Origin: an uncultured Tenacibaculum sp.
GTDB taxonomy: Bacteria > Bacteroidota > Bacteroidia > Flavobacteriales > Flavobacteriaceae
Length of the DNA stretch: 64,000 nt
Direction: 5' to 3'
Assembly (NCBI GenBank): GCA_947492185.1
Contig: CANLMR010000001.1
Coordinates: 1,078,433-1,142,432 of the forward strand
In this document: positions 59,310 through 64,000 of the stretch, piece by piece
Numbering within the stretch: position 1 is the stretch's first letter
Layout of the letters: each line of letters begins with the position of its first letter
Made by a program: the position numbers and the translations under genes
Notes under the pieces: generated by a model
What the model saw: only the letters and a program-made list of their open reading frames with translations
The model's database searches: none
What the model was told of the DNA's origin: nothing

Positions 59310-59705
59310 GGGGACGACTGGTTTTGACAGCAAGACTAGTAAAACTGTAAGCATACCGAGGATTGAAATGACTACTCGTAAAACTTATTTCAACAATTTA
59401 AACGGCGAAAATAATTACGCTTTAGCTGCTTAATAATCTGAATTATAGTAAGATTCAAGCCTAGTCCCGCGAGGCGGGAAAGCTAAATGTCCACGAAAAG
59501 CCTTGGTTTGCGGCGTTTCACTTTTGGGCATCGTAAAAGTAAACATAGAAAATCTAATACTTCGATAGATTTTCGAAACTAAAGAAGATAAGCTAAAAAT
59601 GGGCCGTTCTTAGTCAGCTTTTAGTCGAAAATTAAATAAGAACTAAGTATGTAGAAAGCTTTTTTGCTACTTGTTTGGACCCGAGTTCGATTCTCGGCGT
59701 CTCCA
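59310..59705 (+). ncRNA. ssrA: transfer-messenger RNA
   Basis: 5' GGGGACGACTGGTTTTGACAGC; tag frame GGC GAA AAT AAT TAC GCT TTA GCT GCT TAA (59404-59433, GENNYALAA); 3' GAGTTCGATTCTCGGCGTCTCCA. Confidence 0.96.
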
Positions 59706-59791
59706 CAAAATTTTAATCCCTGTAACTTTTGTTGTAGGGATTATTTTTTTAGATAATTATATGCTTTTTCGATTAAGTTTATTCTATTGTT

Positions 59792-59927
59792 GCACAACGT
59801 GTTTGTATATGGATTGTTGCGTGATTTAAGTACTAAATTTAGCAAATAATAACCGAATAGAAAATCCGAGAGGATTTTCGTAAGTAAGCTAGAACTAGCA
59901 ATAAATTATATACGGTGTTGTAGGTAG
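59792..59927. repeat. attC-like imperfect palindrome A
   Basis: GCACAACGTGTTTGTATATGG...TTATATACGGTGTTGTAGG; inner hairpin AAAATCCGAGAGGATTTT. Confidence 0.7.
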
Positions 59928-59930
59928 TTT

Positions 59931-60356
59931 TTATATTTCAGTCATTTTAATAGTTCTACTCGATGTTCTTCTTTCTCCATCTATTGTATAGCTTGTAATG
60001 ATTTTTAATTCCGAAAATTCTTTATAATTCTGAATACTCTTTTTAATTAAATCAGAAGTTAGTTTAATCTTACTTTTCCTTTCTTGAGAATCAATAGATT
60101 TAAATTCCGAAATCATTATAGTAATATCATTCGATATTTTTCCATTAAAATTAGTCTCGCTTTTCGAAATCAATGGGAATTCACAATTCCAGATTTTTTT
60201 TAAACTCTCAATAGTTTTTTCTCTTGAGTCAGAATATATAATTTCAATTGAATTTGTTTCCGAGTTTATTGCTATTTCAGTTTTTTTTTGAGAGTCAGTT
60301 TTATTTACACAACTCAAAACTAAAATTCCGATTAAAAAGTATAATATTTTTTTCAT
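59931..60356 (-). CDS. hypothetical lipoprotein (cassette gene)
   Basis: MKKILYFLIGILVLSCVNK lipobox. Confidence 0.65.
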   Translation of the reverse strand: MKKILYFLIGILVLSCVNKTDSQKKTEIAINSETNSIEIIYSDSREKTIESLKKIWNCEFPLISKSETNFNGKISNDITIMISEFKSIDSQERKSKIKLTSDLIKKSIQNYKEFSELKIITSYTIDGERRTSSRTIKMTEI

Positions 60357-60378
60357 TAGTTACGTTTTTCTCAAATTA

Positions 60379-60434
60379 CCTACAACGTCCTAAATAAACG
60401 CCCGTTTTAATGGCGTTTATTTTTTGTTGTGAGC
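60379..60434. repeat. attC-like imperfect palindrome B
   Basis: CCTACAACG...AAATAAACGCC/GGCGTTTATTT...TTGTTGTGAGC. Confidence 0.65.
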
Positions 60435-60438
60435 TTTT

Positions 60439-60693
60439 TTACATTCTTGATAATACAGTTATTGTAGTAATTATTGAAACAATTGCACTGATTACAGCTA
60501 TAATCATCAATAATTTTCCAATTTTTTCAATCCAATGAGAAGTCCATTTGAAATCTGTTTCTTGCTCTTCTAAAGATTTCATTCCAAGATAGTTTCTTAG
60601 TTGTCTCGAGTCACTCAATATCTTCCCTAGATAAAATAAAACTACATCATATAAAATGGATTGGATCAATCCAACTAGTGCTGTTAAAATCAT
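60439..60693 (-). CDS. small membrane protein (cassette gene)
   Basis: two hydrophobic segments; 4-nt overlap with the upstream ORF. Confidence 0.55.
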   Translation of the reverse strand: MILTALVGLIQSILYDVVLFYLGKILSDSRQLRNYLGMKSLEEQETDFKWTSHWIEKIGKLLMIIAVISAIVSIITTITVLSRM

Positions 60694-61133
60694 ATCTTTT
60701 GTATTTCTTTTAAAATTATTTCCACAATGTTGTTTCTCAACATTTCTTTCATCTCAGATTCATCTTTTTCCCCTAATACAGTTATTGTCCGCTTAATATT
60801 TATATTACCCGATAATGAGTGATTTGCTGAATTAATTGAGCAATTTAAATTACAATCAATTTGATTTAGTTTACCAGTAGATAAAAAGTCTGTCGAGCCA
60901 TTTACTTCAACATTAATTTGGTAAACTCCTCCATTGAAAGAATGAGTATGTACATAATTGTCATCATGGAATAGTATGTTAACAATATAGGCATTAGGTA
61001 TTTCTCCGTTGATATTAGTATTTCGGTTAACATTTTGATGAGAGTTACTTATCCAAATTTTAGATGAGTCAGAAATCATCATGTTAATTGCGAATGAAAT
61101 TCCTAATAATATGCTTAGTTTGATAAAGTTCAT
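60690..61133 (-). CDS. hypothetical secreted protein (cassette gene)
   Basis: signal-like N-terminus MNFIKLSILLGISFAINMMI. Confidence 0.55.
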   Translation of the reverse strand: MNFIKLSILLGISFAINMMISDSSKIWISNSHQNVNRNTNINGEIPNAYIVNILFHDDNYVHTHSFNGGVYQINVEVNGSTDFLSTGKLNQIDCNLNCSINSANHSLSGNINIKRTITVLGEKDESEMKEMLRNNIVEIILKEIQKI

Positions 61134-61142
61134 TTCTTAATT

Positions 61143-61279
61143 GCTCACAACGGTATTGTATATGAAAAGTAGCGGATTTCAAGCACTAACTTTTCGGTCT
61201 ATAACTGACCTTTAATTTATTCATTTTCTTTCGATTAAGCGACTAAACCGCTATTTTTTATATACGTTGTTGTACACAG
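61143..61279. repeat. attC-like imperfect palindrome C
   Basis: GCTCACAACGGTATTGTATATGAAAAGTAGCGG...CCGCTATTTTTTATATACGTTGTTGTACAC. Confidence 0.7.
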
Positions 61280-62170
61280 TTATTTGTTCAATAGTTGGTT
61301 CATTTTTACTGTTCCCTTTTTTGGATTAGCATTATCACAAAATATTTCCCATTCCAAATAATTTTCGTCATCAAAAGGATGATTTCCAATCTTTATTTCA
61401 GTTAATTTAAATCTACGATTCGGCAAAATAGGTTCATATCTTGATGGGCCATATTTTTCAGACACTTGCATTAAGCCTGTAAATTCGACATCTAAAACAT
61501 CTCTTATTGTATTATCTAAATTGTATGTTTCAAAGGTCATTTTATTAAAAGGACTATATTCATTTCCTTCAATAATCTGTTTTGGTATTTTAAAATCTAC
61601 GTTTAAGTATTTTGCAAGAATTCTACCAATATTTACAGCATAAACTACCAAAGTTGAATGTTTATCTTTGAGTTCAAAATCCAATTCTATTTCAGGATTT
61701 TTCGCTCGATTTAAAATGTCCCTTATTTCATAATCGTACATCGAAGTTGATTGAAAATTATACCTCTTGTAATATTTTTTATCAAATGCTTGATGTGCAG
61801 TATTACTTTTTTTAATATCCACAACATAAACAACTTGTTCATTATTAATTTCAATCGGATGAATTTTGAAATCACTTATTCGCGGCCGAATTTTATCTTG
61901 GATTATTTGCTCCAACCATTCTTTCGTAAAGTCTTTTCTATTGATTGGGTCAATTTTTTCGGGTAGATGTTTATTTACTTTATCTTCTTTTATTCCATAG
62001 ATTAAAATTCCACCATCAGAATTCGCAAATGCACTTACATCTTTAGAAATTTCAGTTGTTTTATTGTTTTGTTTGTCAAGAGAACCTGCTGCTTTATAAT
62101 CAAGGTTTAAATTTTCCTCAACTTTATTTTCTATTAAAGAATTTAGATAGTCAATATTATATTCTGTCAA
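61280..62170 (-). CDS. AlbA_2/Schlafen-like putative DNA-binding/ATPase domain protein (cassette gene)
   Basis: ENLNLDYKAAG...ISKDVSAFANSDGGILIYGIKED. Confidence 0.85.
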   Translation of the reverse strand: MTEYNIDYLNSLIENKVEENLNLDYKAAGSLDKQNNKTTEISKDVSAFANSDGGILIYGIKEDKVNKHLPEKIDPINRKDFTKEWLEQIIQDKIRPRISDFKIHPIEINNEQVVYVVDIKKSNTAHQAFDKKYYKRYNFQSTSMYDYEIRDILNRAKNPEIELDFELKDKHSTLVVYAVNIGRILAKYLNVDFKIPKQIIEGNEYSPFNKMTFETYNLDNTIRDVLDVEFTGLMQVSEKYGPSRYEPILPNRRFKLTEIKIGNHPFDDENYLEWEIFCDNANPKKGTVKMNQLLNK

Positions 62171-62184
62171 TTTATTTGTTGATT

Positions 62185-62901
62185 TTATATTATCGTTATC
62201 ACGAATGGTAGTTCATTATCACCATTCATAATAGGGTTTTGTTTTCCTTCAGTCAGTTCAATAACTTGTTTTTTTGCTAATTCAAATATTTTGTTTGCAT
62301 CAACAATGCGTTCTCTATAATACTCGTGAACGTAAATTGCAATGTCAATCATTAATTTGAGAAATAAATATCCGTAAGCACTTTCGTCAATACTTGCTGC
62401 GAATAAGTATATCGTTCCATTTTCCGATTTAGCAAGTGCACTGTCGAATTTTTCACGGGATTCTTCCTTTGTCAAAGGTCGTTTAACAACTCCTCCATAA
62501 GCATATTTTGGGATTAATCTATTCAATCTTTTAATGTCAAGTTCAAAGTCAATTACATTTCTACAAGTTTCCAAAATATGTAATTGCTTTTTACATTCAA
62601 ATTGTATTTGTCCAGGTTGTATGAAAGTATCTTTTTGTAGTTGAAAAATTTGAGTGCCATCTTTATTTGCTCCGTGTCCGATTAGTAATACAATCAAGTA
62701 ATCAAGTTCATTTAGAATATTCAAATTCTGTAAGACTTTAACTTCTGGCTCTTCCAGTACATTTATTTCTGTATCAAAATCGAAAACTCCTCCAGCGTTA
62801 CTACAAAAGAAATCAATATAGAGTTGAACAATTTTTCTATCATTAATCAACTCTATATCAGTTTTGCTATATCCTTTTATGATTAGAACTGACTTTTTCA
62901 T
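62185..62901 (-). CDS. caspase-like (clan CD/C14-type) protease (cassette gene)
   Basis: LDYLIVLLIGHGANKDG (His) and KQLHILETCRNVIDF (Cys); start adjusted to MKKSVLIIKGYSKTD because the upstream 16 residues read repeat D. Confidence 0.7.
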   Translation of the reverse strand: MKKSVLIIKGYSKTDIELINDRKIVQLYIDFFCSNAGGVFDFDTEINVLEEPEVKVLQNLNILNELDYLIVLLIGHGANKDGTQIFQLQKDTFIQPGQIQFECKKQLHILETCRNVIDFELDIKRLNRLIPKYAYGGVVKRPLTKEESREKFDSALAKSENGTIYLFAASIDESAYGYLFLKLMIDIAIYVHEYYRERIVDANKIFELAKKQVIELTEGKQNPIMNGDNELPFVITII

Positions 62902-62904
62902 AAT

Positions 62905-63043
62905 TGTGTACAACGTTTTTGTGTATGGTTTCGTTGCGTGTTTCAGCAACTAAATTAGCAAATACAAACCTAATAGAAAATCCGCGAGGATTTTCGTAAG
63001 TAGGCGAGTACTAGCAATGAATTATACACGTTGTTAGCATACG
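62905..63043. repeat. attC-like imperfect palindrome D
   Basis: TGTGTACAACGTTTTTGTGTATGG...AATTATACACGTTGTTAGCATAC; inner AAAATCCGCGAGGATTTT. Confidence 0.75.
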
Positions 63044-63047
63044 TTTT

Positions 63048-63509
63048 TTATTCATTTCGTATTATGATATTCTCCGTTAATTTTATTTCGGAAATATCTA
63101 CTTTTTCATTTTTTAATAAAAGGTCGTTTATTACTTTAAATTCCGCACTTCGTCCAGCAATTTTAAGTATTACCTCACTTTCTGCTTTTCCTGCGTAATA
63201 ATTGTCTGTTTCGTTTTCGATTATCTTATAAAAACTATTTTCGGCAAAACTTTTAGTTCTTTGTTTTTTGTCTGATAATTGTTCAATATAGTTTTCACGC
63301 CAATTTACGTTTGGTAACATTTTACGAACGAAAGCTATTGGTAGAAAAATCACGATTTCCATTGCATTACTTTCCTTAATTCCGTTTTGAGTGAGAAAAT
63401 TCAATAACTTTTCATTTTCAAGACTTTCATTTAAATTTCCAATTAGATTAATTGAAGTTTTTACTTCAGATTGAAATTCAGATGATTTTATGTTTGTTAG
63501 ATAATCCAC
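63048..63509 (-). CDS. hypothetical protein (cassette gene)
   Basis: ORF, 3 nt after its upstream neighbour. Confidence 0.55.
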   Translation of the reverse strand: MDYLTNIKSSEFQSEVKTSINLIGNLNESLENEKLLNFLTQNGIKESNAMEIVIFLPIAFVRKMLPNVNWRENYIEQLSDKKQRTKSFAENSFYKIIENETDNYYAGKAESEVILKIAGRSAEFKVINDLLLKNEKVDISEIKLTENIIIRNE

Positions 63510-63512
63510 TTT

Positions 63513-63902
63513 TTATTCCTCCTTTTTAAATTCATAATGCTTATCAAATAGATGGTCTTTGACTTTGTAAATCAATTTTTCTTTGTCAATTTTAACAATT
63601 ATATATTCTCGACTTCCAATAGTCAGAGTTGAGTCAATCAACTTATAAGTCGCATCATATTCATTTCCCATTTGATTAATAAAAATGGTTTTGTCCTTAT
63701 TAAAAGTCAGAGTGGTTTTCAATTCTGTTTTTGAGTCAGATTCCGATTCAGAGTCATTCTCAGTAAGTGGCTCAATATCGTCATCAAAAGAGTTCGTTTC
63801 CGCAATCAAAATCCATTTTCCGATTAATTTTTTTTCAGGTTCAGATTGAGCGGTGCAAGAGTTAATTCCGAAAATTAAAGTTAGGACTATTAATATTCTC
63901 AT
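63513..63902 (-). CDS. lipocalin-like lipoprotein (cassette gene)
   Basis: start adjusted to MRILIVLTLIFGINSCTAQ; KKLIGKWILIAE...LTFNKDKTIFINQMG. Confidence 0.7.
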   Translation of the reverse strand: MRILIVLTLIFGINSCTAQSEPEKKLIGKWILIAETNSFDDDIEPLTENDSESESDSKTELKTTLTFNKDKTIFINQMGNEYDATYKLIDSTLTIGSREYIIVKIDKEKLIYKVKDHLFDKHYEFKKEE

Positions 63903-63916
63903 AGTTTTCCTCAAAT

Positions 63917-64000
63917 GTGTGCTAACGTATTTGTGTATGAAAAGTTGCGATAATATTAGTAGCAATTTTTCATTCATTTTTCATAATTTAAAATTAGTTA
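63917..64000. repeat. attC-like palindrome E (truncated by window end)
   Basis: GTGTGCTAACGTATTTGTGTATGAAAAGTTGCG matches the outer arm of D. Confidence 0.6.

Follow-up and report, generated by a model that had tools for sequence, protein, structure and literature searches.

A caspase-family protease gene and a gene for an AlbA_2/Schlafen-type protein share one integron-type gene cassette near the end of the window (the whole 64,000-nt stretch of DNA analysed here), and this cassette has the appearance of a singular combination of two defence genes of known kinds, not of a proven new two-part system. Elsewhere the genes occur in separate single-gene cassettes, and here they are joined without an attC site between them; for this reason we favor, on balance and with modest confidence, a composite cassette in which two independently acquired anti-phage effector genes were bundled and act side by side. 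An anti-virus role of both proteins is probable. Defence genes in integrons are already known, as are bacterial Schlafens and caspase-like defence proteases; what is new to us is the composite cassette, together with the mobile-module character of a short caspase family. Here, integron recombination would have brought a caspase and a Schlafen, both effector types with counterparts in eukaryotes, into a single mobile unit. Searches of the open-access literature returned neither a description of this pairing nor experiments on these proteins. A comparison with known defence systems, proposed in the first-pass annotation of this DNA, left the pair unassigned, with no PADLOC (2.0.0) match to E=1 for either protein. 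Coordinates of all features are given in Table 1.

Table 1 Coordinates of the caspase and AlbA_2 genes, their cassette and the surrounding array
Feature	Position	Strand	Details
Integron-type gene cassette	61152..62914	-	Starts with GTT at 62914, includes both genes and ends with its own attC
Cassette start arm (R' half)	62905..62914	-	GTTGTACACA
Cassette end arm (R'' half)	61269..61278	-	TGTGTACAAC
Caspase-family protease gene	62185..62901	-	238 aa, ATG start; assigned by relatives' Peptidase_C14 matches and profile-profile alignment
Predicted catalytic dyad	62676-62674 (His76 codon), 62565-62563 (Cys113 codon)	-	Acidic Glu111 two residues before Cys
Intergenic gap, caspase/AlbA_2 genes	62171..62184	-	14 nt
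AlbA_2/Schlafen-type protein gene	61280..62170	-	296 aa, TTG start; Pfam SLFN_AlbA_2
Predicted RNase triad (span)	61985..62116	-	Glu19 (62116-62114), Asp24 (62101-62099), Glu62 (61987-61985)
attC-like site, caspase and AlbA_2 cassette	61143..61278	-	Runs into the next cassette's first bases
attC-like site, preceding cassette	62905..63039	-	
Array cassette	59917-60386		Arm GTTGTAGGT
Array cassette	60426-61151		Arm GTTGTGAGC
Caspase and AlbA_2 cassette, arm to arm	61269-62914		Arm GTTGTACAC
Preceding cassette	63033-63926		Arms GTTAGCA (63926-63920) and TGCTAAC (63039-63033), read from sequence

The cassette array sets in ~90 nt past the tmRNA gene (59310-59706), spans positions 59793-64000 and consists of at least four tiling cassettes with small genes; its end coincides with the end of the window and of contig C1. 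Array cassettes open with GTT and a stretch reverse-complementary to their own end, yielding AAC/GTT borders. In the cassette under study, the opening 10 nt match the reverse complement of the closing 10 nt exactly, with these arms located 13 nt ahead of the caspase ORF and 11 nt past the AlbA_2 ORF. Their complementarity was equalled by none of 300 shuffles, which bears out the earlier placement of both genes within one cassette. The attC-like sites of this and the preceding cassette fold into hairpins, with predicted DNA folds of -12.8 kcal/mol (z -1.8) and -17.6 kcal/mol (z -2.8), respectively. Self-complementary ends, AAC/GTT borders and an attC hairpin thus identify an integron-type cassette. 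No attC was found in the 14-nt gap between the genes, and with this short distance and no recombination site separating them, caspase and AlbA_2 move, and probably are transcribed, together. Borders were tested only near ORF ends against shuffles, because a search by 9-nt complementarity alone proved noisy in AT-rich DNA (60 found versus ~49 expected in window positions 0-57 kb). The neighboring cassette at 60426-61151 is likewise a two-gene cassette: its reading frames (60690-61133 and 60439-60693) share 4 nt, and membrane or signal segments are predicted for each. Similar arrays are found at the starts of contigs C12 and C10 of the same assembly.

The array resembles anti-phage integron cassettes in its tiling cassettes, attC-like hairpins and AAC/GTT borders, but differs in that no protein of this assembly scored above the family cut-off for an integron integrase (TIGR02249). 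As the assembly comprises 33 contigs and the array meets a contig end, this absence is provisional. The best match to that model is an Xer-like tyrosine recombinase of 378 aa, encoded at the edge of a contig (6.7e-34; G000 C13:174-968, L073 108-1244), which carries an N-terminal extension and aligns to model positions 9-181 and 240-315 only, leaving 182-239 unaligned. Such matches were judged to be Xer-type and rejected as integron integrases, because the 14 control genomes match the model too. The 378-aa recombinase may or may not serve these cassettes.

Coordinates and motifs of the upstream gene are as first described: a 238-aa caspase-like reading frame carrying LLIGHGANKDG and HILETCRN lies 14 nt upstream of the 296-aa gene. 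The window protein itself has no Pfam caspase match, and its assignment was obtained via relatives. A Hymenobacter relative, 53% identical to it, matches the Pfam caspase family just under the cut-off (2.9e-4), and Peptidase_C14 is matched by the relative on a Bacteroides ovatus plasmid (3.2e-6) and by further ones (L021, 4.3e-17; L022, 1.4e-16; L024, 3.3e-12; L060, 2.6e-13; Leptospira, 6.6e-14). Close and distant clades of the family align over their whole length in a profile-profile comparison (99.8% probability, E=1.7e-28). The caspase-type His/Cys motifs noted earlier hold up as well, with G75, H76, G77, C113, R114, Q221 and P223 invariant in all 14 relatives and residue 111 being E or D in each of them. 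Homology is what the predicted caspase fold rests on, as an AlphaFold model of the window protein built from three sequences reached a mean pLDDT of 35. In profile searches of solved structures, metacaspase-1 (4f6o, E=0.0066) was the best relative of the distant half of the family, and the caspase profiles gave no other useful E-value. A Pfam match to TyeA (E=0.005, under the cut-off) was dismissed as chance, since its location is the caspase core and the relatives match Peptidase_C14 instead; similar sub-threshold Pfam matches of neighboring ORFs were disregarded.

Metacaspases and MALT1 carry an acidic residue two positions before the catalytic Cys, a feature that predicts a basic P1 residue. 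The window protein shares with metacaspases and paracaspases (Peptidase_C14) both the His/Cys dyad and this acidic residue, from which cleavage after Arg or Lys is predicted; unlike them, it is only about 240 aa long, has no extra domain and lacks a direct Pfam caspase match.

The downstream gene, for which an AlbA_2 signature had been proposed (LDYKAAG...ISKDVSAFANSDGGILIYGI), is firmly assigned to that family by a Pfam SLFN_AlbA_2 match (E=7.9e-19) that scores 68.8 bits where 25.3 is the cut-off. A relative with 67% identity (L036) has the same predicted TTG start. The protein consists of an N-terminal SLFN core (about residues 19-143) followed by a C-terminal region rich in beta-strands (about 160-290), the latter modeled with moderate confidence and strongly variable in sequence among relatives. 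The AlphaFold model has pLDDT >80 across most of the core and <50 at residues 203-246. Profile searches of the PDB with this protein returned the Schlafen structure 5yd0 as well as Schlafens 5, 12 and 14, and a Foldseek search with the model had the N' domain of SLFN13 (5yd0) as top PDB match (E=2.1e-4), the TM-score of 0.25 being low since only the core aligns. Residues E19, D24 and E62 align with E205, E210 and D248 of rat SLFN13, which form its RNase site and whose individual mutation abolishes or reduces RNase activity (PMC5862951). In 19 of 19 AlbA_2 relatives the three positions are acidic (E19, D/E24, E62). We therefore regard the protein as a compact bacterial Schlafen and predicted RNase; because the Schlafen triad is complete, it more likely functions as an effector that carries a sensor domain of its own than as a mere nucleic-acid sensor. 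With bacterial Schlafens it has in common the SLFN_AlbA_2 domain, the SLFN13 N' domain as top fold match, the acidic triad and the layout of a core plus an extra C-terminal domain, although this beta domain belongs to no named family. Mammalian SLFN13 differs in that its N' domain is two-lobed, compared with the one AlbA_2 unit of ~125 aa in the window protein (PMC5862951). AlbA_2 relatives are mainly solo genes, and several lie on viral contigs alongside phage genes. No caspase relative was found in a scan of viral contigs, and neither protein matched in phage records.

The pairing of the two genes is not conserved in the loci examined. This AlbA_2 subfamily was found beside none of 12-14 other caspase loci and the caspase beside none of 19 other AlbA_2 loci, and HMMs of both families run over the fetched loci detected co-occurrence in the window only. 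At the genome level, a close AlbA_2 relative is absent from 10 of 11 other caspase-bearing genomes and located on a different contig in the remaining one. Both genes also occur alone within 10-nt arms by the same shuffle test, the caspase in four other genomes (L025, L058, L059 and L011) and an AlbA_2 relative in two (L037 and L038). A dedicated two-gene system, as the first-pass annotation had envisaged, is not upheld by this distribution, and the outcome it had itself named as refuting, that the genes do not co-occur elsewhere, is what the searched samples gave. Caspase-bearing genomes make up ~1% of the genomes searched; taxa outside this sample may contain a conserved pair, and functional coupling would fit the 14-nt spacing. 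The solo cassettes represent natural single-gene controls and make the question of whether the two genes work alone or together directly testable. The caspase cassette of Chryseobacterium binzhouense (L011 6001-6717), 72% identical, is interrupted by a stop in frame at codon 17; this copy may therefore be in decay or have its start further downstream. On the B. ovatus plasmid (L013 5822-8717), a divergent protein with AlbA_2 and HATPase domains is encoded ~0.5 kb from the caspase; this neighbor was rejected as support for the pairing, as it lies on the opposite strand, belongs to another subfamily with HATPase_c_4 and misses the HMM of the AlbA_2 subfamily. A 297-aa chain termed CbCash (PDB 9ylu, 9ylv and 9ylx) matches the AlbA_2 profiles weakly (E=0.012 for A5, 0.064 for A4) and within residues 36-129 only. 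The caspase profiles matched no caspase chain of that name and the literature search found no paper so named; the name together with the weak AlbA_2 match could relate to a described system.

Observed here are the sequences, family assignments, cassette borders, active-site conservation and the lack of a conserved pairing; the anti-phage function, catalytic activities, triggers and substrates set out next for the composite cassette are inferred, with each protein most likely serving as an anti-phage effector. The variable C-terminal beta domain of the AlbA_2 protein would most likely recognize an infection signal, upon which the Schlafen core would cleave host tRNA or rRNA and thereby abort infection. 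Next to it, and not as part of a sensor-effector relay, the caspase would act as a short stand-alone cysteine protease of the metacaspase/paracaspase kind, cleaving after Arg or Lys. Alternatively, both proteins might form a two-component system acting in series, in which infection leads the caspase to cleave the Schlafen RNase and so activate or release it. Bacterial immunity offers precedents in proteases that have partner proteins as targets, such as the gasdermin proteases and Craspase. The adjacency of the genes in one cassette with a 14-nt gap, the intact predicted active sites of both proteins, and the low-confidence, possibly flexible residues 203-246 of the AlbA_2 protein, which could hold a processing site, are consistent with such a series. 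Solo cassettes of either gene, the lack of any other examined locus with both, and the missing AlbA_2 subfamily in all but one of the other caspase genomes argue against it, and we consider it rather unlikely.

Two-gene cassettes in integron arrays are often toxin-antitoxin pairs, and given that both genes occupy one cassette, a toxin-antitoxin-like or stress/cell-death cassette was considered, with toxicity residing in either the caspase or the RNase and kept in check by the partner. However, each gene is found in solo cassettes without an obvious antitoxin, both proteins look like enzymes, and relatives of the caspase reside in CBASS, TIR and CHAT loci; this reading is unlikely. It is a doubtful proposition that the cassette constitutes a self-contained protease-gated RNase, in which an infection-triggered caspase would cut the Schlafen between core and C-terminal domain to switch on tRNA cleavage. 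Least probable is the earlier proposal of an AlbA_2 protein that, as a sensor or binder of nucleic acid, has control over the protease or else serves as the protease's substrate: juxtaposition in one cassette and nucleic-acid binding by the SLFN/AlbA_2 core of characterised relatives (PMC5862951) speak for it, but the complete RNase triad makes an enzymatic function probable, beyond sensing alone, and caspases of this family lack the AlbA_2 partner in all other examined loci.

The composite-cassette reading agrees with the wider distribution of the caspase, which by sequence is a member of an unnamed short family also present in defence operons. A locus with SMODS CD-NTase (8.5e-45), SLATT_4 two-helix membrane protein (2.7e-63) and caspase displays the gene order of CBASS (L020 6115-8776). 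Its caspase is ~30% identical to that of the window and has the same catalytic residues, yet the window cassette contains no CD-NTase, SLATT or other membrane protein, and no CBASS CD-NTase was found in its neighbors either. The short caspase of L020, the protease component of this operon, likewise has no PADLOC match. In two further loci (L021 and L022), a protein with at least three predicted transmembrane segments directly precedes the caspase. Small proteins with a single predicted membrane segment precede the caspase both in L060, where a SEFIR/TIR protein follows it, and on Leptospira plasmids, where the gene downstream of the caspase encodes a DEAD/DEAH helicase. The recurrent partner of the caspase is therefore a membrane protein, not AlbA_2, and it is reasonable to infer that the caspase in these operons acts on or through the membrane protein. 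Solo caspase cassettes have no membrane-protein partner, so that the substrate is to be sought elsewhere in the cell. The family accordingly moves between solo cassettes and CBASS, TIR and CHAT contexts, with the window member lacking a PADLOC model. The CHAT context is that of Hymenobacter nitidus (L012 6001-10355), where the caspase is followed by a CHAT protein, an unknown 411-aa protein and an LCAT-like hydrolase; resolvase genes lie nearby, and the region is a possible multi-enzyme defence locus.
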